Position numbers and translations under genes: made by a program. The notes under the pieces are model-generated. The model saw nothing but the letters and a program-made list of their open reading frames with translations. It was not told where the DNA came from and searched no databases. A DNA stretch of 44,606 nucleotides from Desulfocapsaceae bacterium (GTDB taxonomy: Bacteria; Desulfobacterota; Desulfobulbia; Desulfobulbales; Desulfocapsaceae), in assembly GCA_031292275.1 (NCBI GenBank), contig JARLHL010000051.1, positions 1 to 44,606 on the forward strand, in the 5' to 3' direction. Shown piece after piece: positions 937 through 12,796 of this stretch (the first letter of the stretch is position 1; each line of letters begins with the position of its first letter).

Positions 937-1194
937 ATGACCAGAGATGAGCTGCAAGAAAAAATCCTCACCATTCTTGTCCAGGATTTTGAATTCAAGG
1001 ACCCTAAACTCGATGACAATCTCAGGGATGATCATGGTTTCGACAGTATAGACGCCATTGAATTGCTGAGTAAGATTGAGATAATTTTTGGTTTTTCCCT
1101 GACCAGAGAGGAAAAGGAAAAGGCCATGGAGATTCGGACCATCACCGATATTCTCGACTATCTGGAAAAGATTCAGCAAGGCCGCGGCAAATAA
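937..1194 (+). CDS. Acyl carrier protein (first of two in the cluster)
   Basis: An 85-residue acidic helical protein with the 4'-phosphopantetheine site GFDSIDAIEL, attachment serine at residue 37. Length and motif fit a discrete ACP. It is not the usual FabD/FabG/AcpP context: it sits between an LpxL-like acyltransferase and a FabF-like ketosynthase, which begins 24 bases downstream, so it probably carries the chain of this pathway. The site differs from the housekeeping AcpP consensus (DSLD) by having DSID, as does the second ACP at 6830-7111. No strong ribosome-binding site is visible before the ATG. The 200-base gap upstream (737-936) contains only short inverted repeats around 795-825 and no convincing gene. 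Confidence 0.93.
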   Translation: MTRDELQEKILTILVQDFEFKDPKLDDNLRDDHGFDSIDAIELLSKIEIIFGFSLTREEKEKAMEIRTITDILDYLEKIQQGRGK

Positions 1195-1218
1195 ATCAAT
1201 GGCCCCGTAATCCTGACA

Positions 1219-2466
1219 ATGAAACGACGAGTTGTCATTACTGCGTGTTCCGCGATCACGCCCATCGGCTACGGCAAGCAGGCCATCACCGACAGCCTCC
1301 TGCACGGAGTATCGGGGGTCAGGCCTCTTAAGGATGACGGTCTTCTGACCGATCGCATCCATTCGCGGGTCTTCGGGACGGTGGATTATCCCATCGCCTA
1401 CGACTTCACCCGTTCACAGCGGAAGACCATGGGGCCGGTGGCCTACTATGCCTGTCAGGTCGCCAAGGACGTGCTGTCCGCCTCGGGGCTGTCCGCGGAG
1501 TATATCTCTTCCGGGCGGCTGGGAGTGGCCTTCGGCTCCACCCACGGCAGCCCCACCGTCCAGCGGGATATCTACAGGACCTTCTTCCAGAGGATGGAGG
1601 AGGGCTTCTCCTCCATCGGCGCGGTCGATTATCTGCGCTCCATGGTCCATACCACGGCGGTGAATATCACCCGCATGTTCGGCATCACCGGCAGGGTGAT
1701 TGCCTCCTCCACGGCCTGCACAACCAGCAGCCAGGCCATCGGCTTCGGTTACGAGATGATCAAGTTCGGCATGCAGGACGCCATGATCTGCGGGGGGGCC
1801 GATGAATATGACACCACGACTGTGGCGGTCTTCGACAATCTGCTCGCCTGCTCGGTGGCCTATAACGACAGGCCCGAGCTGACGCCGCGTCCCTTCGACA
1901 GGAAGCGCGACGGCCTGGTAGTGGGCGAGGGCGGCGGCGCCGTGCTGCTGGAGGAATACGAGGCGGCCAGAAAGCGGGGAGCGCCCATTCTTGCCGAGGT
2001 GATCGGGTTTTCCTGCAACAATAACGGTGGTGATCTGATCCTGCCCAATCTGGACGGCATCACAGCCACCCTCCGTCTGGCCCTGGCCGATGCCGGGATT
2101 GCCGCCGACGAGGTCGACTCCATCAGCGCCCATGCCACTGCCACCAAGATGGGGGACATCATCGAATCCCAGGCCATCGAGGCGGTCTACGGCAGCAAAC
2201 CCTTTGTCACCGGTCTGAAAAGCTATACGGGCCATTGCATGGGCACTTGCGGGGTGATCGAACTGATCATGAATCTCTACATGATGGAGGAGGGCTTTCT
2301 CGCCCCGACCCTGAATCTGGACGAGGTCGACCCCCGTTGCGGCGCCGTACGGCATACCCCGGAGGTCATACGGATACATGCCGGGATTGCCGCTGTCCAG
2401 AATTTTGCCTTCGGGGGAGTCAATACCTGCCTGCTTGTCAAAAACGGCCGTGAGGTTATTGCCTGA
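1219..2466 (+). CDS. FabF/FabB-like beta-ketoacyl-ACP synthase
   Basis: A 415-residue condensing enzyme, the normal length for KAS I/II. The catalytic Cys-His-His set is intact: Cys167 in SSTACTTSSQA, His305 in SAHATATKMGD, Lys334 and His339 in GLKSYTGHCMGT. The protein should therefore perform decarboxylative Claisen condensation on ACP-bound chains and is not a chain-length factor. The GTST usually following the first histidine is ATAT here, which points to a divergent, specialised-metabolism clade. It lies 24 bases after the ACP gene and only 3 bases before the PlsC-like gene, so the three are almost certainly cotranscribed. No ketoreductase or dehydratase is encoded nearby, so these steps must be borrowed from primary fatty-acid synthesis, lie upstream of the window, or be absent. 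Confidence 0.93.
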   Translation: MKRRVVITACSAITPIGYGKQAITDSLLHGVSGVRPLKDDGLLTDRIHSRVFGTVDYPIAYDFTRSQRKTMGPVAYYACQVAKDVLSASGLSAEYISSGRLGVAFGSTHGSPTVQRDIYRTFFQRMEEGFSSIGAVDYLRSMVHTTAVNITRMFGITGRVIASSTACTTSSQAIGFGYEMIKFGMQDAMICGGADEYDTTTVAVFDNLLACSVAYNDRPELTPRPFDRKRDGLVVGEGGGAVLLEEYEAARKRGAPILAEVIGFSCNNNGGDLILPNLDGITATLRLALADAGIAADEVDSISAHATATKMGDIIESQAIEAVYGSKPFVTGLKSYTGHCMGTCGVIELIMNLYMMEEGFLAPTLNLDEVDPRCGAVRHTPEVIRIHAGIAAVQNFAFGGVNTCLLVKNGREVIA

Positions 2467-2469
2467 ACC

Positions 2470-3219
2470 ATGGAGACTGGCAAGGCCGACAGACTGATTG
2501 ATATCGGTGTGACCCTGATCTGCTGGTGCTATTTCATCCTGGCCTTTCTGCTCTTCTTTTCCCCCTTCTATCTGGCGGCGGCACGCAATTCATCTCCTGA
2601 GCATCGTTTCCAGCGCCTGAATAGAGTATTTTACGGGGGATTTTTTGCATTGCTCAGGCGAATCACCCCCCGGCAGCAGTGGAGCATTGACCCGGAGATT
2701 GCAGGTATTCGCTCCTCGGTGGTTGTCTGCAATCATGTCTCCTATCTTGACCCGATACTGTTGATCTCCCTGCTTGGCCGGGCCAGGACCATTGTCAAGC
2801 CTCTCTTTTTCTCCGTGCCGGTCTTTGGCTGGATCCTTCGCAGATCCGGATACTTTCCTGCCACCTCCAGCGGGCCGCTGGCCGGGCTGATGCTGATGCA
2901 GATGGAGACGATGGAGCAATTCCTGCGGGAAGGAGGAAACCTCTTCATTTTTCCCCAGGGGACCCGAAGCCGCGATGGCAGCATCGGTGTTCTGGATGAG
3001 GGCGCCTTCAAGATTGCCAGGTATTGCAAGGCCCCGGTCCGGGTCCTGTGCATACGAAATACCGAAAGGCTGTTCACCCCGGGGAAGTTCTTCTTTTTTA
3101 CCAGAAGGCCCAACCGGATCAGTGTCCGTATCCTAGATACGATATTGCCCGGCCGCGGCCTGTCGGAACTCAAGGTCCGGGTCCGGCAGGTCCTGGAGGG
3201 CTGTACCCGGGAGGCATAA
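2470..3219 (+). CDS. PlsC-like 1-acylglycerol-3-phosphate acyltransferase family protein
   Basis: A 249-residue LPLAT-superfamily protein with a hydrophobic N-terminal segment (about residues 10-36), the acceptor motif NHVSYLD (an HX4D box) and the FPQGTRS motif, in which the usual Glu of FPEGTRS is Gln. The family esterifies lysophosphatidate or related lipids at the inner membrane. The start is 3 bases after the ketosynthase stop, implying translational coupling. With the LpxL-like enzyme at the window start, this is the second acyltransferase of the cluster, which suggests that the finished chain is placed on a glycerol- or sugar-type acceptor. The Glu-to-Gln change is worth checking because that residue contributes to phosphate or acceptor binding. 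Confidence 0.88.
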   Translation: METGKADRLIDIGVTLICWCYFILAFLLFFSPFYLAAARNSSPEHRFQRLNRVFYGGFFALLRRITPRQQWSIDPEIAGIRSSVVVCNHVSYLDPILLISLLGRARTIVKPLFFSVPVFGWILRRSGYFPATSSGPLAGLMLMQMETMEQFLREGGNLFIFPQGTRSRDGSIGVLDEGAFKIARYCKAPVRVLCIRNTERLFTPGKFFFFTRRPNRISVRILDTILPGRGLSELKVRVRQVLEGCTREA

Positions 3220-3324
3220 AGGGGCGGCCTTTGAGTATGGTCCCGGCAAAGCGGGGGGCGGCGAGAGGGATCTCTCATGGACGGGGCAGGGAGCCCGGAG
3301 AAGGCAAGAAGGAGCAGCGCACGG

Positions 3325-4377
3325 ATGCAGTTATACAATATGGAATTCACTGAGGCCGAGATCGGCGAGGCGGTTGCGGCCAACCGGCTGCTTTCTATGG
3401 AGATCGAGTTCAGCCGGGCCTGCAACTTTCGCTGCGCCTACTGCTACCAGGCCGAGCGGACGGCGGCGGCCGATGAGATGACTTTGGAGGAGAGCAGAGA
3501 CGTGCTTCTCCAGGCCAGGGAGCTGGGTGCCCGCAAGATCATCATCCTGGGCGGCGAGCCCAGCATCTATCCCCATCTTGTAGAGATGCTGCGCTTCCTT
3601 GGCCGTCAGGGTTTTGAAGTGGAGATTTTTACCAACGGCAGCGGTATTTCGCCAGCGCTGGCGCAGATCCTGGCTGAAGAGCGGGTGCGGGTGGTGGTGA
3701 AGATGAACTCCCGCAGCGAGGCTGTCCAGGACCGGCTGGCCGGGAAAAAGGGGGCCTTCGGGATTATTGACACCGCCTTTGCCAACCTCCGCCGGGCGGG
3801 CTATCCCTGCAATCAGCTCTTTCTTGCCGCCAGCACGGTGATCTGCCGCCAGAACATCGATGAGCTGCCGGCCCTGTGGCAGTGGCTGCGCCAAGGCGGG
3901 ATCGAGCCCTATTTCGAGGTCCTGACTCCGCAGGCCAACGCCCTGGAGAACAGGTGGCTCAATGTGGGGCCGGATGAGCTGCGCCGGCTCTTTCACCGGC
4001 TCGCCGCCATCGACCGCGAGCAGTTCGGCCGCAGCTGGGATCCGCAGCCGCCGCTCATCGGCAACAGGTGCATGCGGCATCAGGTCTCCTGCGTGGTGAC
4101 CGCCAACGGTCAGGTCATGCCCTGCGTGGGGGTCACGATCCCGCTGGGCTCCATACGCGAGCAGCCTCTCGCCGATATCCTGCGTCATCAGGTTGTGTGC
4201 GACCTGAAAAATTACCGGCAGATGATCAAAGGCCCCTGCAGGACATGTGAGAAGAGCGATGAATGTTACGGCTGCCGGGGTGCGGCCTATCAGATGACAG
4301 GAGATTATCTCGCCTCGGATCCGACCTGCTGGAGAAACAGTGCTCAACCGGTCGAGATCGGTGAGAAAACCCGATAA
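3325..4377 (+). CDS. Radical SAM protein with SPASM-type C-terminal domain
   Basis: Contains the radical SAM cluster motif CNFRCAYC (Cys33, Cys37, Cys40 from the chosen start), a GGEPSIY motif typical of SAM-binding strand 2, and a C-terminal cysteine-rich region. That region has CX5GX4C followed by CX2CX5CX2C and a final Cys, as in SPASM domains that bind auxiliary Fe-S clusters. SPASM enzymes usually modify peptides but some act on other carrier-bound substrates. No precursor peptide gene was found next to it. I chose the ATG at 3325 because AAGGAG lies at 3309-3314; an in-frame ATG at 3277 with GAGAGG at 3263 would add 16 charged residues. The gene sits between PlsC-like and B12-radical-SAM genes, so its substrate may be an ACP-bound chain or a lipid head group. 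Confidence 0.9.
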   Translation: MQLYNMEFTEAEIGEAVAANRLLSMEIEFSRACNFRCAYCYQAERTAAADEMTLEESRDVLLQARELGARKIIILGGEPSIYPHLVEMLRFLGRQGFEVEIFTNGSGISPALAQILAEERVRVVVKMNSRSEAVQDRLAGKKGAFGIIDTAFANLRRAGYPCNQLFLAASTVICRQNIDELPALWQWLRQGGIEPYFEVLTPQANALENRWLNVGPDELRRLFHRLAAIDREQFGRSWDPQPPLIGNRCMRHQVSCVVTANGQVMPCVGVTIPLGSIREQPLADILRHQVVCDLKNYRQMIKGPCRTCEKSDECYGCRGAAYQMTGDYLASDPTCWRNSAQPVEIGEKTR

Positions 4378-4413: not shown

Positions 4414-5703
4414 ATGAATATCCTGCTTGTTAACCCGCCAAATTGCGGACGGAGCATCCCGGAAGAACGTTACGGCATCACCTCGATCAAGCAGATCTTC
4501 AGGGGGGAGCCTTTGGCCCTGGAAGAGCTGGCAGGCAACCTGCACGGGCATGAGATCCGGCTTATAGACCTGAAGGCCGACCCCGGCGGGCTGGCCCGTG
4601 AGCTGCAGGAGTTTCGGCCCGATGTGGCGGGGATCACCGGGGTTACCTGCGAGGCCAATACCGTTCTCCGGCTGGCCCAAGAGATCAGGGGATACGGCGC
4701 CGTAGTCGTGGTCGGCGGCATCCATGCCAGCAATGATCCGGAATTTTTCAACCGGGAAGAGATCGATTACATCGTCACGGGGCTGGGTAAGAGGACCTTT
4801 GCCCAGCTGGTCGATCTGCTGGAAGAGGGAGGTTCCGTCCTGCCGTCGGGTGTCTGCCGCACCAGCCCCGGCAGGCCCCTGGACCTTGAAAGGCGCTGCA
4901 GCAGCCCCGCGGATATGGTGCAGGAGCAGTCTCCCGACTATCAGCTGGTCAGCCGCTATCGGGAGCACTATGTGCTGGAACGGCTGGGCATACGCATGGG
5001 TTTTGTGGCCTCCGCCTTCGGTTGTCCCCATTCCTGCTCCTTCTGTGCCATCAGGGGGCAGACCGGAGGCAGTTATCTGACCCGGTCGGCCGAGGCGGTC
5101 ATCCGCGATATCAGCCTGCTGCCCCAGACCCCGGTCATCCGGCTGGTGGATGCCAATACCTTCGGCGATGTCCGTCGGGCCAGGGAGTTGGCAGACGCCC
5201 TGCTGCGGTCGGGCCTTGCGAAACAGTACCTGGCCGATATCCGCTCCGATACCGTGGTCCGCCACCCGGAACTGCTCAGGCTCTGGAAGCAGGCCGGCCT
5301 GCGGGCGGTGATCATCGGCTTTGAGGCCATTGACGATGCCAGCCTTGCCTCCATGCAGAAGGCCAGCGAGGCCCGCATGAACACCGAGGCCATCGCCATC
5401 CTGCATGATCTGGGCATTACCATCGTCGGCGACTTCATCATCAGCCCGGATGCGGAGCAGGAGGATTTCTCCCGGTTGTCGCGCTATTTTTCCGACAATC
5501 CCATCGACCTGCCGATGATCACCGTTATGACGCCGCTGCCGGGTACTCCCCTGTACAGCCGGCAGCAACACCTGATTACTAATCACGACCTTGACTACTA
5601 CACCCTGACCAATGCCGTCATCCCAACCAGACTGGACGAAGAGCGGTTTTATACAGCCTATGCGGAGCTGCTCTCACAAGGTCATAACCACGCACGTATC
5701 TAG
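4414..5703 (+). CDS. B12-binding-domain radical SAM protein
   Basis: A 429-residue protein with an N-terminal Rossmann-like cobalamin-binding domain (about residues 1-150, including VVVVGGIHAS) and a radical SAM core with CPHSCSFC (Cys204, Cys208, Cys211). The DXHXXG cobalamin-ligand motif is not visible, which is common in class B enzymes. Family members include radical methylases, BchE-type cyclases and hopanoid-modifying enzymes. It starts 36 bases after the SPASM enzyme and ends 3 bases before the FabH-like synthase, so it belongs to the same transcript. Plausible tasks are C-methylation of an unactivated carbon, ring formation or another carbon-skeleton change on the pathway intermediate. 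The domain assignment is firm; the reaction is unknown. Confidence 0.9.
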   Translation: MNILLVNPPNCGRSIPEERYGITSIKQIFRGEPLALEELAGNLHGHEIRLIDLKADPGGLARELQEFRPDVAGITGVTCEANTVLRLAQEIRGYGAVVVVGGIHASNDPEFFNREEIDYIVTGLGKRTFAQLVDLLEEGGSVLPSGVCRTSPGRPLDLERRCSSPADMVQEQSPDYQLVSRYREHYVLERLGIRMGFVASAFGCPHSCSFCAIRGQTGGSYLTRSAEAVIRDISLLPQTPVIRLVDANTFGDVRRARELADALLRSGLAKQYLADIRSDTVVRHPELLRLWKQAGLRAVIIGFEAIDDASLASMQKASEARMNTEAIAILHDLGITIVGDFIISPDAEQEDFSRLSRYFSDNPIDLPMITVMTPLPGTPLYSRQQHLITNHDLDYYTLTNAVIPTRLDEERFYTAYAELLSQGHNHARI

Positions 5704-5706
5704 CCT

Positions 5707-6843
5707 ATGGACGCATATATAACGGCGGTTTCCGCCTTCCTCCCCGGAAAGGCGGTGGACAATGAGGCGATCGACCTCTATCTGGGCAGGCCCGACCGGA
5801 TTTCCGCCAGGACCAGAAAGATGATACTGGCCAGTAACGGGATCAAGGCCCGCTATTACGCCGTCGATCCCCGGTCGGGGCTTGCCACCCACACCAATGC
5901 CCAGCTTGCCGCCAGGGCGATTCAAGGCCTGCTGAAGGGTGCATCCCCACTCCATTGCCTGTGCTGCGGGACCTCCTCCCCTGACCAGATGATGCCGGGC
6001 CATGCCTCCATGGTCCATGGTGAGCTGGGCATCGGCCCCTGTGAGGTGGTCAGCACCTCCGGAGTCTGCCTGACCGGGATCACGGCCTTGAAGTACGGGG
6101 CGATGGCCGTGGCCCTGGGGCTTGCCGAAAACGCGGTGGCTGCCGGTTCCGAGCTGGCCTCCTCTTTCATGCGCGCCGATTTTTTCGCCCAGGCAGGCGC
6201 CGGCAGGGTCGATGAGCAGGGGGCGGCCCATCCCGCCTTTTCCTTCGAAGAGAATTTCCTGCGCTGGATGCTGTCCGACGGGGCGGGGGCGGTGCTGATT
6301 GAAAACAGGCCGGGGGACGGACTCAGCCTGCATGTCGAGGGGATTGAGATCGTTTCTATGGCCCATCGCCTGCCGGCCTGCATGTTTGCCGGCTGCATCA
6401 GACGGGAGGACGGATCCCTGCAGGGCTGGCGGGATGCGGTGCGGCAGGGCCTGGCCGCGGCCGGGGGCGTATTCACGGTCAAACAGGATGCAAAGCTTCT
6501 GAACCGTGAGGTGCTGCCGGCCCTGATCGGGGGCGGCTTGCCTCCCGTTATCGAGAAATATGCCCTTGCGCCGGACGATATCGACTGGTTTCTGCCGCAC
6601 TATTCGTCGGGTTATTTCCGTGAGCCGCTCTTCCGACAGCTCTGCGATATCGGTTTTGCCATCCCCCGGGAACGCTGGTTCACCAATCTGGCCAGCAAGG
6701 GGAACACCGGCTCGGCCTCCTTTTACATCATGCTGGAGGAGCTGTTCGGCTCGGGGCGGCTGCAGAGCGGGCAGCGTATCCTGGGGATGATTCCCGAAAG
6801 CGGCAGATTTTCGGTGGGGTACGTGCTGCTCAGGGTTGTCTGA
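5707..6843 (+). CDS. FabH-like beta-ketoacyl-ACP synthase III family protein
   Basis: A 378-residue thiolase-fold enzyme, longer than housekeeping FabH (about 320). The Cys-His-Asn triad of KAS III is preserved: Cys121 in STSGVCLTG, His298 in FLPHYSSG and Asn333 in NLASKGNTGS. KAS III enzymes use CoA- or ACP-bound starters; relatives also make dialkylresorcinols, alkyl quinolones and head-to-head or ester products. It begins 3 bases after the B12 radical SAM gene and completes the plus-strand run. Its last 14 bases overlap the 3' end of the second ACP gene on the other strand. Within the pathway it could prime the chain or join two acyl chains; the sequence alone does not decide. Confidence 0.9.
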   Translation: MDAYITAVSAFLPGKAVDNEAIDLYLGRPDRISARTRKMILASNGIKARYYAVDPRSGLATHTNAQLAARAIQGLLKGASPLHCLCCGTSSPDQMMPGHASMVHGELGIGPCEVVSTSGVCLTGITALKYGAMAVALGLAENAVAAGSELASSFMRADFFAQAGAGRVDEQGAAHPAFSFEENFLRWMLSDGAGAVLIENRPGDGLSLHVEGIEIVSMAHRLPACMFAGCIRREDGSLQGWRDAVRQGLAAAGGVFTVKQDAKLLNREVLPALIGGGLPPVIEKYALAPDDIDWFLPHYSSGYFREPLFRQLCDIGFAIPRERWFTNLASKGNTGSASFYIMLEELFGSGRLQSGQRILGMIPESGRFSVGYVLLRVV

Positions 6844-7111
6844 GCCTCTCGGAAGAATGTTCCAGGATGTGGGCGGCCAGACTGGCCACAGACTGCAGGA
6901 TTATCCGGCTCGAATCCTGATATTCGATGCGCACGCCGTATTCCTTCTGCACCATCACGACGATTTCCAGGGCGTCGATGGAGTCGATGCCCAGAGGGGA
7001 GTCGGGACCGATCAGGGGATCGTCGGGTTGCACCGAGTCAATCTGCGTCTCCGGCAGGTTGCAGGTCCTGCAGATCGCCTGCAGGATTTCGCGTTCAAAT
7101 TGAGTAATCAC
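6830..7111 (-). CDS. Acyl carrier protein (second of two in the cluster)
   Basis: A 93-residue ACP with phosphopantetheine site LGIDSIDALEIV, Ser44. The start is GTG, supported by an upstream AGGAAGGA ribosome-binding sequence 6 bases away on the minus strand. The protein has a longer loop before the site (PLIGPDSPLG), so the two carriers probably have different partners. It is last in the minus-strand operon coding for the 143-aa protein, BtrH-like protein and ABC transporter, 153 bases after the permease. The BtrH family is known to take acyl groups from a dedicated ACP, so this carrier is the natural donor for the BtrH-like protein here (inference). Its 3' end overlaps the convergent FabH-like gene by 14 bases. 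Confidence 0.92.
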   Translation of the reverse strand: MITQFEREILQAICRTCNLPETQIDSVQPDDPLIGPDSPLGIDSIDALEIVVMVQKEYGVRIEYQDSSRIILQSVASLAAHILEHSSERLRQP

Positions 7112-7264: not shown

Positions 7265-8539
7265 TTATCTGGAGGAGCGTTTCCAGGAAAGAATGACCAT
7301 CACGGCGAAAAAGGTCAACAATCTGGCCAAATCATGTCCAATGGCCAAAAAATCCTTCCCGCGCACCAGAAGATCGAGGAAGGCGTTCACGCCCCAGTTG
7401 AGGGGTGAGAGGATGCTGAGCCTCTGCATCATCTGCGGCATGGCGTAGACCGGTACCATCACCCCGCCCAGGGCGGCGGCTATGACGACCATGGTCGAGC
7501 CCAGGGTAGAGGCCTGTTCATAGGAGTGACAGACCGAGCCCAGGAAGGTCCCGAAGCCGCAGGCTGCAAGGCTGCAGGCGCAGATGAGGGGCAGGAGCAC
7601 CATCGGATTTTCCGGAAGGGTGAAGGCCTGCAGGCCCAGATGCGGAAAGAGAACGATGCCGATGAGGACAATGAGCAGGAACTGGCAGAGACAGACGCAG
7701 AGATAGGCTGTTATCTTGCCTCCCAGCAGCTGCAGCGGCGAGACCGGTATGCCGGCCAGCCTGACGGCGATGCCGGATCGCCGTTCGGCCAGGATGGTCC
7801 CGGCGATGGGAATGGCGGTGAAGAACATACCAAAGAGGGCCCAGGCCGGGACGTTCTGGTTCACCGGGTTGATGATGTCGCTGATGGTGGCCGTGCCGGT
7901 TGTGGTCGGCTGCTCGGTTATCGTGGTAAAGCTGTGGCTGAAGGTCTGCTTCAGGCTGTCGTCCGCCTGCAGAGGCGAGGGCGCTCCCGGATTGAGACGG
8001 CCGAGCCTTGCCTGCAGAGAGTGTCCCAGCTCCTGTGCCAGCATCTCTATTTCCGCCGCTCTTGCCGCCATCTGCAGCCTGGAGAGGATGCCTGCCCGGA
8101 AGCCGGCCATGGCCCCGGGGTCGAACAGGATGCTCAGGCTGGCCGTATCCGGAGTCCCGTCGATGGCGTGATCGCCCGCCGCGAGGCGGGATGCCATCTC
8201 CTGCTGCAGCCGCCGGGAGACGCCCGCAGGGATGATTATTCCGGCCTGGTATCTGCCGTCGGCAATGAGCCGCTGCAGGTCCTCACCCTGTTCCGGGCTG
8301 TGGACCGAGATCTTCATCTGCCGCAGGGAGGAGAGGAGCGTGGAGGCGAAGACCCCGCCGTCCTGATCGAGCAGCAGGACCTCCGTCTGCCGCTGTCCGG
8401 AGAGGGCCAGGATGTTTTCCTGGACCAAGGTGATGACGATGACCAGGATGGCCGGCATAATGAAGAGCACCAGCAGTCCGGCCCGGTCGCGGACCAGGAG
8501 CAGGAGCTCTTTGGCGGTGGTGGAGAGAATTTTTTGCAT
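7265..8539 (-). CDS. ABC-2 type transporter permease
   Basis: A 424-residue protein beginning MQKILSTTAKEL. One N-terminal membrane segment (about residues 22-42) is followed by a large extracytoplasmic domain (to about 230) and then roughly five membrane segments near the C terminus, including a stretch ending SPLNWGVNAFLDLL, the ABC2_membrane_3 layout. The frame is open further upstream to 8662, but that region is inside the ATPase gene, so the ATG at 8539, four bases after the ATPase stop, is preferred. It forms a heteromeric exporter with the ATPase encoded just upstream. In this setting it likely exports the cluster product or its lipid-linked form; no drug-specific motif supports a narrower claim. 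Confidence 0.92.
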   Translation of the reverse strand: MQKILSTTAKELLLLVRDRAGLLVLFIMPAILVIVITLVQENILALSGQRQTEVLLLDQDGGVFASTLLSSLRQMKISVHSPEQGEDLQRLIADGRYQAGIIIPAGVSRRLQQEMASRLAAGDHAIDGTPDTASLSILFDPGAMAGFRAGILSRLQMAARAAEIEMLAQELGHSLQARLGRLNPGAPSPLQADDSLKQTFSHSFTTITEQPTTTGTATISDIINPVNQNVPAWALFGMFFTAIPIAGTILAERRSGIAVRLAGIPVSPLQLLGGKITAYLCVCLCQFLLIVLIGIVLFPHLGLQAFTLPENPMVLLPLICACSLAACGFGTFLGSVCHSYEQASTLGSTMVVIAAALGGVMVPVYAMPQMMQRLSILSPLNWGVNAFLDLLVRGKDFLAIGHDLARLLTFFAVMVILSWKRSSR

Positions 8540-8543
8540 AATT

Positions 8544-9311
8544 TCAGATGTCGCGGATCTGCTTGCCGGTAAGGCCGAGAAACAGCTCTTCCAGGCTGTG
8601 ACAGGCGCTTTCCTGCAGGAGTCGGGCGGGCGGGCCCTGCCGGAGGATCCGGCCTTCGTCAAGGATGGCGATGGTCGAGCAGAGTTCCTGGGCCTCCTCC
8701 ATATAGTGGGTGGTGTAGAGCAGGGTCGTTCCCTGGGCGTGCAGGCCTTGCAGTTGCCGGTGGATGAGATGCCGGGACTGGGTGTCGATGCCCACCGTCG
8801 GCTCGTCGAGAAAGAGGATGGAGGGGGCGTTGAGCAGGCCGATGACCAGATTGAGCCGGCGTTTCATGCCGCCGGAGAAGGAGGCGACCCTGTGGTCCGC
8901 CCGCTCATGCAGCTGAGCTATTTCAAGACAATATCCTGTCCGTTCTTTGAGCCTGCCGCCGCCAAGCCCCAGCAGTCTGCCGAAAATTATCAGATTTTCC
9001 CGGGCAGTGAGCTGGTCGTAGAGGGCGATCTCCTGCGGGACGATGCCGATTCTTTCCTGAATCCGGCGCTGCTGTCTGCGATACTCCATGCCCAGAATCC
9101 GGACTGTGCCTCCATCGGGCGCTCTGAGACCGCAGAGGATGGAGAGGATAGTGGTCTTCCCGGCGCCGTTGGGGCCCAGCAGACCGAAAAATTCACCCCT
9201 GCCGATGGTCAGATCCAGCCCTGTCAGGGCCGGCCGGTCGGCCAGTCGGTATTTTTTTATCAGCCCGGCGGTCTGGATGGCCGGGTCCTGGCCTGGATCT
9301 CTCGGGTTCAT
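8544..9311 (-). CDS. ABC transporter ATP-binding protein
   Basis: A 255-residue nucleotide-binding domain with Walker A GPNGAGKTT, signature FSGGMKRR (LSGGQ variant), Walker B ILFLDEPTVGID and an H-loop in LYTTHY. It is of the CcmA/NodI/DrrA class that pairs with ABC-2 permeases. I placed the start at 9311 because its ATG overlaps the TGA of the BtrH-like gene as ATGA, the classic coupled arrangement; longer frames up to 9371 lie inside that gene. The permease follows four bases after its stop. Together they make an exporter, and their placement between the BtrH-like gene and an ACP gene ties transport to the acyl pathway. Confidence 0.95.
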   Translation of the reverse strand: MNPRDPGQDPAIQTAGLIKKYRLADRPALTGLDLTIGRGEFFGLLGPNGAGKTTILSILCGLRAPDGGTVRILGMEYRRQQRRIQERIGIVPQEIALYDQLTARENLIIFGRLLGLGGGRLKERTGYCLEIAQLHERADHRVASFSGGMKRRLNLVIGLLNAPSILFLDEPTVGIDTQSRHLIHRQLQGLHAQGTTLLYTTHYMEEAQELCSTIAILDEGRILRQGPPARLLQESACHSLEELFLGLTGKQIRDI

Positions 9312-10330
9312 GATGCACCCCGGACCCAGTCCCGCAAGGAATTGAAGGCCTGGGTCTCCATAACGGCGCATTGCCGGATATGGTCGGCTGCGGCTGCGTA
9401 GGTGTCGTCGGCCTTAGGCCGACTCTTGCAGATTCGGGCGGCCATGGCCGCGAATTCCCGCCACCTGTCGCCTGCTGCCTGCAGGGTGGAGGCGCAGGTC
9501 CGGAGGGACTGGTCGCCAAGAAGGATGCCGCTTTCCTGCAGGAACGCAGCGTAGATGAAGCGGAAGCCGCCGCCGCCGGTGCCGATTTCTTCCTGCATGC
9601 GCACCACATGGCCCAGGTGCAGGGCCGCCTTCTCGGCGCCGAGCCTCTCCGGCCAGCGGCAAAGCCTCCCCGCCAGAAAGCGGATGCCCCTGACGCCGAT
9701 CAGCGGAAATATCCCTTTCAGCATCATGGAGCAGACGGAATCGATGCCCTCAATGATGGCCAGGCGGCGGTCGAAATCCCGGTCCGCCCGGCTGAAGTGA
9801 TACATCTTTCCCTTGGGCGCCAGTGTCCCCGAAGCGAAACGGGCCCTGGCCAGGTCCTCGGCCGGACAGAGGACCGGCTCGGGGAAGACGGGGTCGCTGA
9901 TCAGATAATTGTCCCCCTCTTTGCCGTAGACCACCAGGTTGTGGGCATTGAAGTGAAATCGCAGGGCCTTGGGAAAATAGGGCAGCCAGAACACCCCGGT
10001 CTGCAGACCCACCGGTATAGACTGCGCCAGCCTGGAGTCGAGCTCCGCCATGGCCTGGCCGGCCGAGGAGAAAGTCTGCCGGCTCAGATTGAAGCCGGGG
10101 AGGCGGGAAAAGCGCTTCAGCAGGCCGCCTGCGGCGGCGCGGTAGGTCACCAGCGGCAGATGGTTGATCCGGATAAAGGGAAAATAACCGAAGAACAGAC
10201 CGGCGCCGATGCCGAAGGCCATGGCCTCGGAGAGTTCTATGCCCTGATGGTTCAGGAGGTTGGCCGCCACCCCGCTTTCACAGTGGGCCGACTGGCGGTG
10301 CCGGAAGTCTATGCGAATCGGTTCAGCCAT
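9308..10330 (-). CDS. BtrH-like protein, putative acyl-ACP:amine/hydroxyl acyltransferase
   Basis: A 340-residue protein whose N-terminal half fits the BtrH_N family. It begins with a conserved HCESGVAANLL stretch containing Cys17, then GIELSEAMAFGIGAG, and has a later AHNLVVYGKEGDNYLISDP block. The C-terminal half is helical, like the domain often attached to BtrH_N. BtrH of butirosin synthesis moves an acyl group from the carrier BtrI to an aminoglycoside amine; Cys17 and the His of AHNLVVYG are candidate catalytic residues by analogy. The start at 10330 overlaps the preceding gene by 8 bases; a longer frame to 10369 is less likely. The gene is coupled to the ABC ATPase (ATGA) and shares an operon with an ACP, which supports an off-loading role. 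The acceptor is unknown. Confidence 0.8.
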   Translation of the reverse strand: MAEPIRIDFRHRQSAHCESGVAANLLNHQGIELSEAMAFGIGAGLFFGYFPFIRINHLPLVTYRAAAGGLLKRFSRLPGFNLSRQTFSSAGQAMAELDSRLAQSIPVGLQTGVFWLPYFPKALRFHFNAHNLVVYGKEGDNYLISDPVFPEPVLCPAEDLARARFASGTLAPKGKMYHFSRADRDFDRRLAIIEGIDSVCSMMLKGIFPLIGVRGIRFLAGRLCRWPERLGAEKAALHLGHVVRMQEEIGTGGGGFRFIYAAFLQESGILLGDQSLRTCASTLQAAGDRWREFAAMAARICKSRPKADDTYAAAADHIRQCAVMETQAFNSLRDWVRGAS

Positions 10331-10754
10331 GTTTCTGCGCAGAAGAATAGACGGCCGGAAGCAGGGCACCTTTTTTCAGGTCCTTGCTGGAGATCTGGAA
10401 GAGATCGGCATAGCGCTGCAGCTGTCCCGCAGTCAGCCGCCTGAAAAAAAAAGGGATGAGATGCAGGCGGACCCGCAAGGACGACTGCCCGGAATAGCGG
10501 GCGAGGAGCATGATGCTCATCTGATTGGCAATCATATAGTAATACAGGCAGCTTGCCCGGCCCGATACCACTCGGCCGCGGGCCTGCTCGATCTGCTTTT
10601 CTATTTCCCTCCAGGCCTGCCGGTTGACGTCGTTGACCGGCTGCCAGCCCTGGCCTTTGACCTGTTCAAGCTGCCCCAGACTGTTTTGGGCATAGCTGAC
10701 GGTCTGCAGGCCATCTGTTATGGAGTCGGCTGTGTCGGGCGGATCTGTCTGCAT
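10323..10754 (-). CDS. Conserved-looking small protein of unknown function, first gene of the BtrH/ABC operon
   Basis: A 143-residue soluble-looking protein I do not recognise. The N-terminal 40 residues are polar; the middle (about residues 65-110) is rich in aromatic and hydrophobic residues (LYYYMIANQMSIMLL, then LHLIPFFFRRL) and probably helical. The C terminus is a short helix ending KKGALLPAVY. There is no signal peptide and no clear membrane helix. It overlaps the BtrH-like gene by 8 bases and leads the minus-strand operon, so it is probably a required partner of the acyl transfer or export step. The start ATG at 10754 has no obvious ribosome-binding site, but a sigma70-like promoter sits only about 30-56 bases upstream. 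Confidence 0.75.
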   Translation of the reverse strand: MQTDPPDTADSITDGLQTVSYAQNSLGQLEQVKGQGWQPVNDVNRQAWREIEKQIEQARGRVVSGRASCLYYYMIANQMSIMLLARYSGQSSLRVRLHLIPFFFRRLTAGQLQRYADLFQISSKDLKKGALLPAVYSSAQKHG

Positions 10755-11314
10755 GACTGGGTGACCGTTTGAGCGTATTTAAATTATGACAGAAAATGTT
10801 TTTCAGGCAAGAGGGGGGGCCAAGGAAGACCTCTCTCCTCCTTGCCCGGTTCATGTTTGCCCGTAGATCTAATGGATTGGAGGGGTAAATGCAAGATATT
10901 TAATGAAAAGTGAAGGGCGGAAGGTGGAGTTTTTGGTAAGTATCTGAAATAGAATAAATAAAGATGGCAGTCTCGTTGGCCGGATTTCTCACTATCCTCC
11001 TGCCTGCGATCTGGATAAGAGAAGGAAACGCTGTGCTATTTTTCAGCTGGGGTCTGCAAAGGCAGCATTGCATCCAGGACTGCTCCTGTGGTATCCTGAC
11101 ACGTTGTTAAACTGCGTGTTTGCTGCTGGGATCTGGCTGGTTGGACTTGTCGTCGGCCGTCTGGCTGGATAATCGTCTCTTCGTCTGCCGACTCCTTTTA
11201 TTGAATAAGAAAGCATGCTGGAAGAGCGGCCTTGCCGAAGAGATGTCCGTTGACGTTTCGGTGTGGCCGGCCTACGGCATGCGCCATGCTGGTTTACCTG
11301 TTGATGATAAAGCC
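10755..11314. other. Divergent intergenic region between the BtrH operon and the CrtI-like gene
   Basis: About 560 bases without a firm gene. It holds the minus-strand promoter at 10783-10810 and a short AT-rich stretch near 10890-10965. A 48-codon open frame (10964-11110, plus strand) starts at ATG, with a hydrophobic beginning and a cysteine-rich end. A weak plus-strand promoter candidate is TTGTCG (11147-11152) with GATAAT (11168-11173), spacer 15. The reading frame of the CrtI-like gene is open back to 11120, but the residues encoded there do not look like a Rossmann-fold N terminus. Confidence 0.5.
10783..10810 (-). promoter_or_regulatory. Predicted sigma70-type promoter of the BtrH/ABC/ACP operon
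   Basis: Read on the minus strand: -35 TTGCCT (10810-10805), a 16-base spacer and -10 CATAAT (10788-10783). Transcription would start about 20 bases before the ATG at 10754, giving a very short leader. The -10 matches five of six consensus bases and the -35 four of six. Confidence 0.5.
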
Positions 11315-12796
11315 ATGAACCATACTGCTGCAAGCAAGGTCCTGGTCATCGGGTCCGGGATTGGCGGACTGAGCACTGCAATCATCTTGGCCAGGCTCGG
11401 ATACGATGTCACCGTGCTTGAAAAGAACGGACAGCCCGGCGGGATGATGCGCAGTTTTGTACGGCAGGGCGTGCACTGCAATGTCGGGCTCCACTATCTG
11501 GGCGCCCTGGAGCAGGGGCAGGTCCTGCGCCGCTGCTTCGATTATCTGGGGATTACAGCCGAGTTGCCCCTGCTGCGGATGGGGACCGATGGTCCGGTGG
11601 ACCGCTACCTCTTTGCCGATAGGGGCTTAGGGGTCGACTGTTTTGATGTCCCGAGCGGATTTGCGGTCTATGAGGACGCTCTTCTTGCCGCCTTTCCCGC
11701 ACAGAACCGGCAGATCGGCGCGCTGACGGCCATGCTGCGCCGCAGTGCCGGCCAGTTCGAGGCGCTTGACTTCCTCTATTCGGATACGCCGGCCCGGTAT
11801 TTTTTTGAGCAGGCCGAACCTCTGGGGACTCTTCTTGACAGTCTTAACTGTTCTCCCGGTCTGCGGGCGGTTTTTGGCCTGCCTTCGGTCCTGATCGGTG
11901 TCCCGCCTGCGCTCTGCCCGCAATTTTATCATACCATGGCCCTGGCCAGCTATCTGTTCTCCGCCTGGCGTCTGGCCAGCAGCGGGGCGCATATGGCCGA
12001 TGTCTGCTTCAGGCGCCTGGAGTCACTGGGGGGCCGGGTTCGGACGGGCGATAGGGTTGCCCGGATACGGACCGCGGGCGGCTGCGTTCAGGGGGTTAGC
12101 CTGGCCTCCGGAGAAGACTTGGATGCACCCTTGGTTGTTGGTGCGATCCATCCCAAAGAAGTCCTGCAATTGCTTGCAGGTGAGCACATCAAGCCATCGT
12201 ACCGGAGCCGCATCCTGTCATTGACCGATAGCGGGGGAATGTGTGCTGTCCATGCCCTGGTGCCTGCCGACCGGCATCCGGCCATGGCTCACAACCTGTT
12301 TACCGTCAAAACGGAGGCCAATGGTGATGTCAAGGATCTGCTCTATATGCAGCTTCGCCCCAGTGAGCAGTCCGGCCAGAACCTGCTCTCTCTGATCACC
12401 TCCGGACATGAGGATCTCTGGAGTCCCTGGCGGCAGACCGTAAGCGGCCGCAGAGGCGAGGACTACCTGCAGGCCAAAACCGCCTTTGCCCGGCGGCTGA
12501 TCGCTAAGGCGGGGCAGGTCGTCGGCCCTTTCAGCGAAATTCGCCTGCTGGACGTGTCCACGCCGCTTACTCTCCGGGATTGGGTAGGCAGCCCGGAGGG
12601 ATCGGCCTATGGCGTCATGCGTTCGGCCCAGCAGATGCTGCCGGCGGCCCTGCTCAATCGCAGTTCGCTGCAGGGGCTGTTCCTGGCAGGTCAGAATGTC
12701 CTGGCCCCGGGCCTGCTCGGCACCATCATGGGATCACTGGTAACGGTGCAGTTCATCATCGGCTCTGAGCGGTTCAGAAAGGAAGTCCGGATCTGA
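11315..12796 (+). CDS. CrtI/phytoene-desaturase-like FAD-dependent oxidoreductase
   Basis: A 493-residue flavoprotein. The N terminus has the dinucleotide-binding signature VLVIGSGIGGLSTA followed by an acidic strand end (VLEKN) and GGMMRSF, as in CrtI, carotenoid isomerases and retinol saturases. The C terminus has the second FAD motif, LFLAGQNVLAPGLLGTIMGS. The family desaturates, saturates or isomerises polyene or long acyl substrates. The start at 11315 is chosen because the Rossmann strand begins eight residues later. It stands alone on the plus strand, 560 bases from the divergent BtrH operon, and probably belongs to the cluster. No phytoene synthase or other carotenoid gene is in the window, so a carotenoid role is unlikely; a redox step on the cluster's acyl or polyene product is favoured. 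Confidence 0.88.
   Translation: MNHTAASKVLVIGSGIGGLSTAIILARLGYDVTVLEKNGQPGGMMRSFVRQGVHCNVGLHYLGALEQGQVLRRCFDYLGITAELPLLRMGTDGPVDRYLFADRGLGVDCFDVPSGFAVYEDALLAAFPAQNRQIGALTAMLRRSAGQFEALDFLYSDTPARYFFEQAEPLGTLLDSLNCSPGLRAVFGLPSVLIGVPPALCPQFYHTMALASYLFSAWRLASSGAHMADVCFRRLESLGGRVRTGDRVARIRTAGGCVQGVSLASGEDLDAPLVVGAIHPKEVLQLLAGEHIKPSYRSRILSLTDSGGMCAVHALVPADRHPAMAHNLFTVKTEANGDVKDLLYMQLRPSEQSGQNLLSLITSGHEDLWSPWRQTVSGRRGEDYLQAKTAFARRLIAKAGQVVGPFSEIRLLDVSTPLTLRDWVGSPEGSAYGVMRSAQQMLPAALLNRSSLQGLFLAGQNVLAPGLLGTIMGSLVTVQFIIGSERFRKEVRI

Follow-up and report, generated by a model that had tools for sequence, protein, structure and literature searches.

A probable dialkylresorcinol/flexirubin-type gene cluster with a B12-radical SAM gene in the position of darA in a Desulfocapsaceae bacterium

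A contig of the Desulfocapsaceae bacterium assembly GCA_031292275.1 (JARLHL010000051.1, positions 1 to 44,606) carries what is probably a dialkylresorcinol/flexirubin-type (dar) gene cluster, of a form in which a cobalamin (B12)-binding radical S-adenosylmethionine (SAM) enzyme takes the position of the ring-finishing gene darA; production of a compound of this type is predicted through the steps proposed below. The window, by which we mean this whole stretch of 44,606 nucleotides, is one entire contig of an assembly of 4.1 Mb in 114 contigs that is 99.98% complete, and no match to DarA was found in this assembly at E <= 1e-10 with a DarA-like protein from a relative (locus L058) as query. The strict exchange between DarA and the B12-radical SAM enzyme is the strongest new point of our analysis: 54 genomes encode DarB, the ketosynthase/cyclase of the pathway, and 30 of them have the B12-radical SAM enzyme, 24 have DarA and none has both. 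The presence of such a gene in place of the ring-finishing gene suggests an unassigned way to a pigment-type molecule of this kind, and no relevant report linking B12 or radical SAM enzymes to dialkylresorcinol or flexirubin biosynthesis was found in the open-access literature searched, where the matches for dialkylresorcinol concerned an O-alkylating and a cyclophane enzyme and flexirubin gave none. An earlier note on this DNA had dealt with a neighboring operon for acyl transfer and export; the absent darA and the gene found in its place were not part of it.

Identification of the dar-type gene set

We assign the locus to the dar pathway because three of its proteins match pathway models above cut-off and because a like gene string is printed for Azoarcus sp. 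BH72 in the available text of PMC3949708. The 143-amino-acid (aa) protein encoded at 10323 to 10754 on the minus strand, which the earlier note had called unrecognized, belongs to a known family: it scores 106 bits against NCBIfam NF053536, 'DarG family dialkylresorcinol biosynthesis protein' (cut-off 70), and misses the flexirubin DarG model NF053545 (102 bits, cut-off 170). A Tachystatin_B match to the same protein fell under its cut-off and was treated as chance. The BtrH-like protein of 340 aa encoded at 9308 to 10330 on the minus strand (BtrH_N, 160 bits, and DUF4872, 174 bits, in Pfam) scores 448 bits against the DarH model NF053550 (cut-off 300), and the ketosynthase/cyclase encoded at 5707 to 6843 on the plus strand scores 503 bits against the StlD/DarB subfamily model NF005293 (cut-off 450). 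The position of darA is taken by a plus-strand gene at 4414 to 5703, whose product has a B12-binding domain (57 bits) followed by a Radical_SAM domain (45 bits).

The darG-like gene leads an operon on the minus strand. It overlaps darH by 8 bases (10330 to 10323), and darH runs from its ATG at 10330 to a stop at 9308, which overlaps as ATGA (9308 to 9311) the start at 9311 of a gene for a DrrA-like ATP-binding cassette (ABC) transporter ATPase (8544 to 9311; ABC_tran, 105 bits). Both the overlap and the ATGA coupling had been described in the earlier note and are confirmed directly. The gene for an ABC-2 type permease (7265 to 8539; ABC2_membrane_3, 116 bits) starts with ATG at 8539, four bases past the ATPase stop. 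An acyl carrier protein (ACP) gene with a GTG start and a GIDSID attachment motif (6830 to 7111, minus strand; PP-binding, 32 bits), which had been counted in the operon, is on the same strand, 153 bases downstream of the permease gene, but lies outside the interval of 7265 to 10754 given for that operon; at its 3' end the gene shares 14 bases with the convergent darB. Pfam matches above cut-off were obtained for every gene of the operon except the 143-aa gene. The same gene order is seen again in relatives, so that the arrangement is more than chance, and acyl transfer from a carrier protein followed by export remains the best reading of the operon.

The operon is a known module, of a type already in print in 2014. 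Statements on published systems here follow the available portions of the cited papers. Table 1 of the paper on the Azoarcus dar cluster (darA to darK; arcuflavin biosynthesis) lists a conserved hypothetical protein, a BtrH-like protein, an ABC ATPase, an ABC permease and an ACP (darD-E-F-I-C) beside darB-darA, and as in the window this string lies with a ketosynthase near darB (PMC3949708). By position and annotation, darD and darE of that paper correspond to the DarG and DarH of NCBIfam, which we follow; the names darG and darH are used there for two genes annotated as antitoxin and PilT type, which stand between the ATPase and permease genes, unlike in the window. Furthermore, the darB of the window is convergent to the operon, unlike that of Azoarcus, and has the B12-radical SAM gene next to it where Azoarcus has darA, labeled an aromatase in the same table (PMC3949708). 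For arcuflavin, the predicted structure is that of a dialkylresorcinol esterified with an aryl polyene (PMC3949708), and cyclohexanediones occur as intermediates on the way to dialkylresorcinols (PMC4414361). The flexirubin cluster of Chitinophaga pinensis and Flavobacterium johnsoniae resembles that of the window in combining DarB with aryl-polyene genes, and yields a polyene ester of a dialkylresorcinol; however, it uses DarA, and the joining enzyme proposed there is the ligase-like FlxW rather than a BtrH-like protein (PMC3992019).

For the window, we propose that DarB would condense two acyl-carrier thioesters into a dialkyl-1,3-cyclohexanedione, as described for its family. The B12-radical SAM enzyme, taking the place of DarA, would act on that ring, oxidation to the resorcinol and C-methylation being about equally likely. 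DarH, by way of Cys17, His130 and Asp146, would then move an acyl chain, probably an aryl polyene, from a carrier protein to a ring hydroxyl, DarG may serve as its partner or as a local regulator, and the ABC-2 transporter would export the ester. In relatives, an exporter-type gene with MMPL and methyltransferase domains adjoins darG-darH and stands among genes that, from their types, look like aryl-polyene genes. The window's genome encodes a homologue of this exporter (1024 bits) on a different contig, and a match at E <= 1e-30 is present in 48 of the 54 DarB genomes.

Distribution of DarA and the B12-radical SAM enzyme

DarA was named in relatives by its position directly upstream of darB; a neighborhood of ACP, ketosynthase III and DarA-like genes on a Streptomyces plasmid was also used for the naming. 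In a sample of 60 genomes of the family, DarB is present in 25, divided into 12 with DarA (at least 329 bits) and 13 with the B12-radical SAM enzyme of the window's clade (at least 490 bits), with no genome having both. A sample of 395 genomes of the phylum gave DarB in 33, four of them already counted; the 29 new genomes comprise 17 with the B12-radical SAM enzyme (at least 471 bits) and 12 with DarA, and again none with both. Eleven of these 12 DarA matches score at least 184 bits, and the remaining one (G105) consists of the last 46 residues only, at a contig end. At most four DarB candidates were scored per genome in the phylum scan, so that absence of DarB is less firm there. In all 30 genomes of the B12 form, the B12-radical SAM gene lies on the same strand as darB and no more than 170 bases upstream of it, and in 23 of the 24 DarA genomes darA adjoins darB on a single contig (the two are split over two contigs in G058).

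Weaker matches were set apart. DarA matches of about 42 to 61 bits were counted as other flavodoxin-like proteins, and B12-radical SAM matches of 196 to 222 bits (G040, G027, G038, G045, G279) as other branches of that enzyme family. Four family genomes with such matches, at 216 to 222 bits, have no DarB, and the DarA genome G279 has its remote match (196 bits) on a different contig. In G007, whose assembly is 87% complete, DarA is present (267 bits) and no match to DarB was obtained.

We also surveyed named genomes through the best 80 of 177 relatives of the B12-radical SAM enzyme. Directly downstream of the gene, darB is found in 79 of these 80 loci (truncated in one case by a contig end), and in the 80th the contig stops at the B12 gene; no match to DarA was found in the 80 loci. 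Many of the contigs are short, and darG is present in at least 36 and darH in at least 44 of the loci. Carriers include Desulfobulbus rhabdoformis, Desulfofustis glycolicus, Desulfogranum, Desulfurivibrio, Desulfuromusa kysingii and Geothermobacter hydrogeniphilus. Loci of this type also occur under the labels, as given, of Holophagaceae (two metagenome bins), Verrucomicrobia and Neptunomonas.

Possible replacement of DarA or methylation of the ring

We may hypothesize, tentatively, that DarA has a non-homologous replacement in the cobalamin-dependent radical SAM enzyme, which would oxidize the cyclohexanedione made by DarB to the resorcinol by radical chemistry; this would constitute a second, unrecognized flexirubin-type route in sulfate- and metal-reducing bacteria. 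Cys204, Cys208 and Cys211 of the enzyme (CxxxCxxC) are invariant in 30 aligned sequences. The catalytic residues of DarB, Cys121, His298 and Asn327, are conserved at more than 98% in both the DarA and the B12 classes (53 rows), and no class-specific DarB residue was detected at 90% in the same alignment. That the catalytic residues are alike in both forms suggests that the same ring is made first.

Several observations weigh against the scheme proposed above for the locus. First, DarA in relatives is identified by position and by a flavodoxin match below cut-off only; no curated DarA model matched the two DarA-like proteins tried. Second, the DarB of the window falls under the narrow DarB model NF053539 (406 bits, cut-off 550). 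Two of three DarA-linked relatives tested miss this model as well (488 and 478 bits), which argues that the model itself is narrow. Third, the DarA/B12 label changes only once among the 53 DarB proteins of a phylogenetic tree (Shimodaira-Hasegawa approximate likelihood ratio test support 97); this tree was built by a quick method and leaves out L087 (a partial DarB) and L054 (a distant ketosynthase, 78 bits). The label also changes once on the DarH tree (support 35) and twice on the DarG tree; fragments of less than 110 aa were dropped from both of these trees, in which 6 and 4 rows, respectively, that have no linked darB stand outside the count. A single change means that the exclusivity reflects one old split kept faithfully rather than repeated replacement, and we therefore rejected as decisive the idea of many independent events; the product of the B12 form may differ from that of the DarA form. 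The two forms are interleaved among species, and one genus (g5) holds both.

Fourth, the cytochrome oxidase gene COX1 is found in 6 of 24 DarA genomes (including a weak, broken match in G149) versus 21 of 30 B12 genomes. The B12 enzyme as an oxygen-free substitute for DarA was rejected on this count, COX1 being rarer in the DarA genomes. Fifth, DarB-like genes are present on plasmids of Bacteroidota and Pseudoalteromonas with neither DarA nor a B12-radical SAM enzyme annotated as a neighbor; we therefore claim the two-way rule for the sampled genomes only. Sixth, in family f33, darG-darH sits on contigs other than that of darB, and four f33 genomes with DarG-DarH gave no DarB match at E 1e-50 (at most four candidates scored per genome), so that the acceptor of DarH need not be a resorcinol. 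Finally, the nearest NCBIfam model of the B12-radical SAM enzyme is that of a C-methylase, HpnR (181 bits, cut-off 650), which favors methylation. As a separate observation, the DarB-like genes on Prevotella and Bacteroides plasmids (L214, 5355 to 7125; L215, 5412 to 7137) immediately follow a regulator gene, of TetR or helix-turn-helix type, and the annotation shows no further gene of the pathway within 6 kb on either side.

The rival explanation that fares best is that the enzyme is a C-methyltransferase, the product being a methylated cyclohexanedione or a methylated resorcinol and DarA being absent because aromatization is unwanted or done elsewhere. We regard it as a possibility to be held just as tentatively as the replacement of DarA. 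HpnR, the hopanoid C-3 methylase, ranks ahead of the oxidative cyclase BchE (114 bits, cut-off 481), and both share with the window enzyme the order of a B12-binding and then a radical SAM domain; however, the enzyme scores far under both cut-offs, and it differs from them in being tied to DarB in the 79 of 80 loci reported above. Its solved relatives include a tryptophan C2-methyltransferase (6wte, 48 bits) and TokK (7kdx, 45 bits), but similar scores were obtained for an apramycin oxidoreductase (46 bits) and OxsB (38 bits), which we take not to be plain methylases. Further solved relatives are CysS and a radical SAM protein with no given function. The deep split of DarB into two forms would also be consistent with methylation, although the DarB active sites and the DarG-DarH-ABC-ACP set are common to both forms. 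Membership of the B12 gene in the TIGR04072 'ladder' lipid family was rejected (59 bits, cut-off 360).

The DarG-DarH pair

The earlier note had proposed the 143-aa protein as a possible obligate partner of the BtrH-like protein, and at the level of gene content the pairing holds. DarG occurs in 27 of the 60 family genomes and DarH in the identical 27 (26 of each over cut-off), and the two genes are adjacent by coordinates in all 27, the DarH of G019 being split across two contigs. In the phylum sample, DarG is present in 35 of 395 genomes. We examined 43 best-scoring DarG loci, made up of 15 of the 27 places in the family sample and 30 of the 39 in the phylum sample, two of the latter being already included; lower-scoring places, such as that of G192 at 23 bits, lie outside this set. 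DarH stands beside DarG in 43 of 43, which answers the concern that the 143-aa family might occur mostly without BtrH_N proteins; eight of the loci carry no DarG call by script, though they were fetched with the DarG hidden Markov model. In addition, darG-darH occurs as tandem pairs (two, two and three) before one ABC-ACP set in three genomes of family f33. Co-occurrence, adjacency and duplication as units support the partner idea at the gene-content level.

The tandem arrays are located at L217 (2924 to 7431, three pairs), L218 (5158 to 8219, two) and L219 (5206 to 8276, two), before one ABC transporter, ACP and ketosynthase; they adjoin LpxL-type genes and, in L218 and L219, MMPL-type genes too. 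The sole exception to the pairing in the family sample is a second DarH copy in G014 (L059, 9498 to 10526), which has ABC genes nearby but, within the locus, no match to DarG. In G018, of the window's genus, a divergent DarH (39% identity) is found beside an ACP gene, B12-radical SAM-like genes and an ABC pair (L054, 8815 to 9819); no close DarB was found in the G018 genome, and this DarH possibly belongs to a different pathway with the same module.

In its AlphaFold2 model (mean predicted local distance difference test score, pLDDT, 83), DarG has a Cro/C1-like fold: a predicted N-terminal hairpin and long helix are followed by a Cro/C1-like helix-turn-helix at about residues 64 to 131. These residues align with 9k3w_A in VIA-align at Z 9.3 (61 residues, root-mean-square deviation 1.9), with many Cro/C1 proteins below at Z 8 to 9, although Z values of this magnitude can reflect an arrangement common in helical proteins. 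Foldseek matches are weak (best E 0.02), and the DarG profile against sequences of solved structures gave YbiI at best (E 0.49), a weak likeness in the N-terminal helix. Among 33 family members, 13 match Pfam HTH_26 with E no higher than 1 (4e-4 in the best case); the window's own protein is not one of them.

With such a fold, and with darG as the first gene of the operon behind a promoter-like match (10810 to 10783), DarG may instead be envisioned as a DNA-binding autoregulator of the operon, the overlap with darH then reflecting translational coupling only. We consider this rather unlikely. In clusters of the DarA form, darG does not come first but stands between darB and darH, and duplication of darG-darH as pairs would be odd for a regulator. 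HppE and HEPD are enzymes and carry the same Cro/C1-like domain, so that the fold decides neither for a regulator nor for a partner. The promoter-like matches number 3 in the region versus 1.3 expected. Also upstream of darG, an imperfect inverted repeat, GGCAAG...CTTGCC, was spotted by eye at about 10805 to 10850 on the minus strand.

The AlphaFold2 model of DarH has a mean pLDDT of 94. All 36 aligned sequences have Cys17, His130 and Asp146, which form, judging from this alignment, a candidate triad; they parallel the residues changed in the CtaG variants C11A, H128A and D144N, as named in structure entry titles. Among solved structures, Foldseek ranks AziU3/U2, CtaG and CcbD highest (E 4e-11 to 3e-7), and the DarH profile against sequences of solved structures matched a designed coiled coil only. 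CcbD/LmbD, CtaG and AziU3/U2 share the overall fold of DarH (template modeling score about 0.6 to 0.7) at 12 to 18% identity. AziU presumably makes an aziridine, and BtrH we take to be a precedent for the transfer of an acyl group to an amine, the reaction that the earlier note had favored for this operon. CcbD is a carrier-protein-dependent condensing enzyme with a Cys triad that loads the acyl group of a carrier protein on its cysteine, so that it has in common with DarH the catalytic Cys and His, with a carrier protein as its acyl donor; its product is an amide, whereas DarH most likely makes an ester (PMC12945683 for CcbD). CtaG is predicted to act on a peptide chain borne by one carrier protein, to which it would pass the acyl group of another (PMC6772006).

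Transfer to an amine appears unlikely for DarH: the products described for the pathway in the available texts are polyene esters of resorcinol (PMC3949708, PMC3992019), from which we expect an ester on a ring hydroxyl and not an amide, so that a ring hydroxyl is the more likely acceptor. A reading of the operon as a self-standing module for acyl transfer to an amine and for export, with no tie to resorcinol pigments, is very unlikely despite the amide made by CcbD, the peptide chain predicted for CtaG, the f33 darG-darH genes away from darB and the divergent DarH of G018 without a close DarB, since all 25 family genomes having DarB also have DarH, DarG and DarH match models of the resorcinol pathway, and the published Azoarcus cluster has a like gene string (PMC3949708).

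Neighboring genes

The dar genes of the window are flanked by further genes on the plus strand. An LpxL-type acyltransferase gene (110 to 736) matches model positions 121 to 290 of 295; its missing N-terminal part probably lies past the contig edge. It is followed by genes, recognized by family models, for a second ACP (937 to 1194; GFDSID motif in the sequence), a FabF-type beta-ketoacyl-ACP synthase (1219 to 2466), a PlsC-type acyltransferase (2470 to 3219) and a radical SAM/SPASM protein (3277 to 4377), and on the other side, divergent from darG, a gene for a CrtI/CrtD-like flavoprotein (11120 to 12796) was likewise identified.

Apart from the LpxL-type gene, these belong to a satellite set composed of ACP, FabF-type ketosynthase, PlsC, a second B12-radical SAM enzyme, radical SAM/SPASM protein and CrtI-like flavoprotein, present in the window at 937 to 4377 and 11120 to 12796 without the second B12 gene. 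The set, whole or in part, accompanies dar clusters of either form, DarA or B12 (L057, L071, L098, L101, L102), and in L047, L051 and L122 a homologue of the CrtI/CrtD-like gene immediately precedes the B12-radical SAM gene. In gene types, the satellite set resembles the fatty-acid clusters of Desulfotalea psychrophila and Kuenenia; according to the available text, polyunsaturated hydrocarbons, not ladderanes, were found in Desulfotalea (PMC2649909).

Conclusions

The DarG-DarH pairing provides a handle on the joining of polyene and ring, a step tentatively assigned in 2014 to a ligase-like protein, in the available part of that paper (PMC3992019). If the B12-radical SAM enzyme indeed replaces DarA, a dar clade in Desulfobulbales, Desulfuromonadales and a few others would make or finish its ring by a chemistry that is unassigned in the open-access literature searched, and an orphan branch of B12-radical SAM enzymes would gain a substrate amenable to testing in a reaction of two enzymes.

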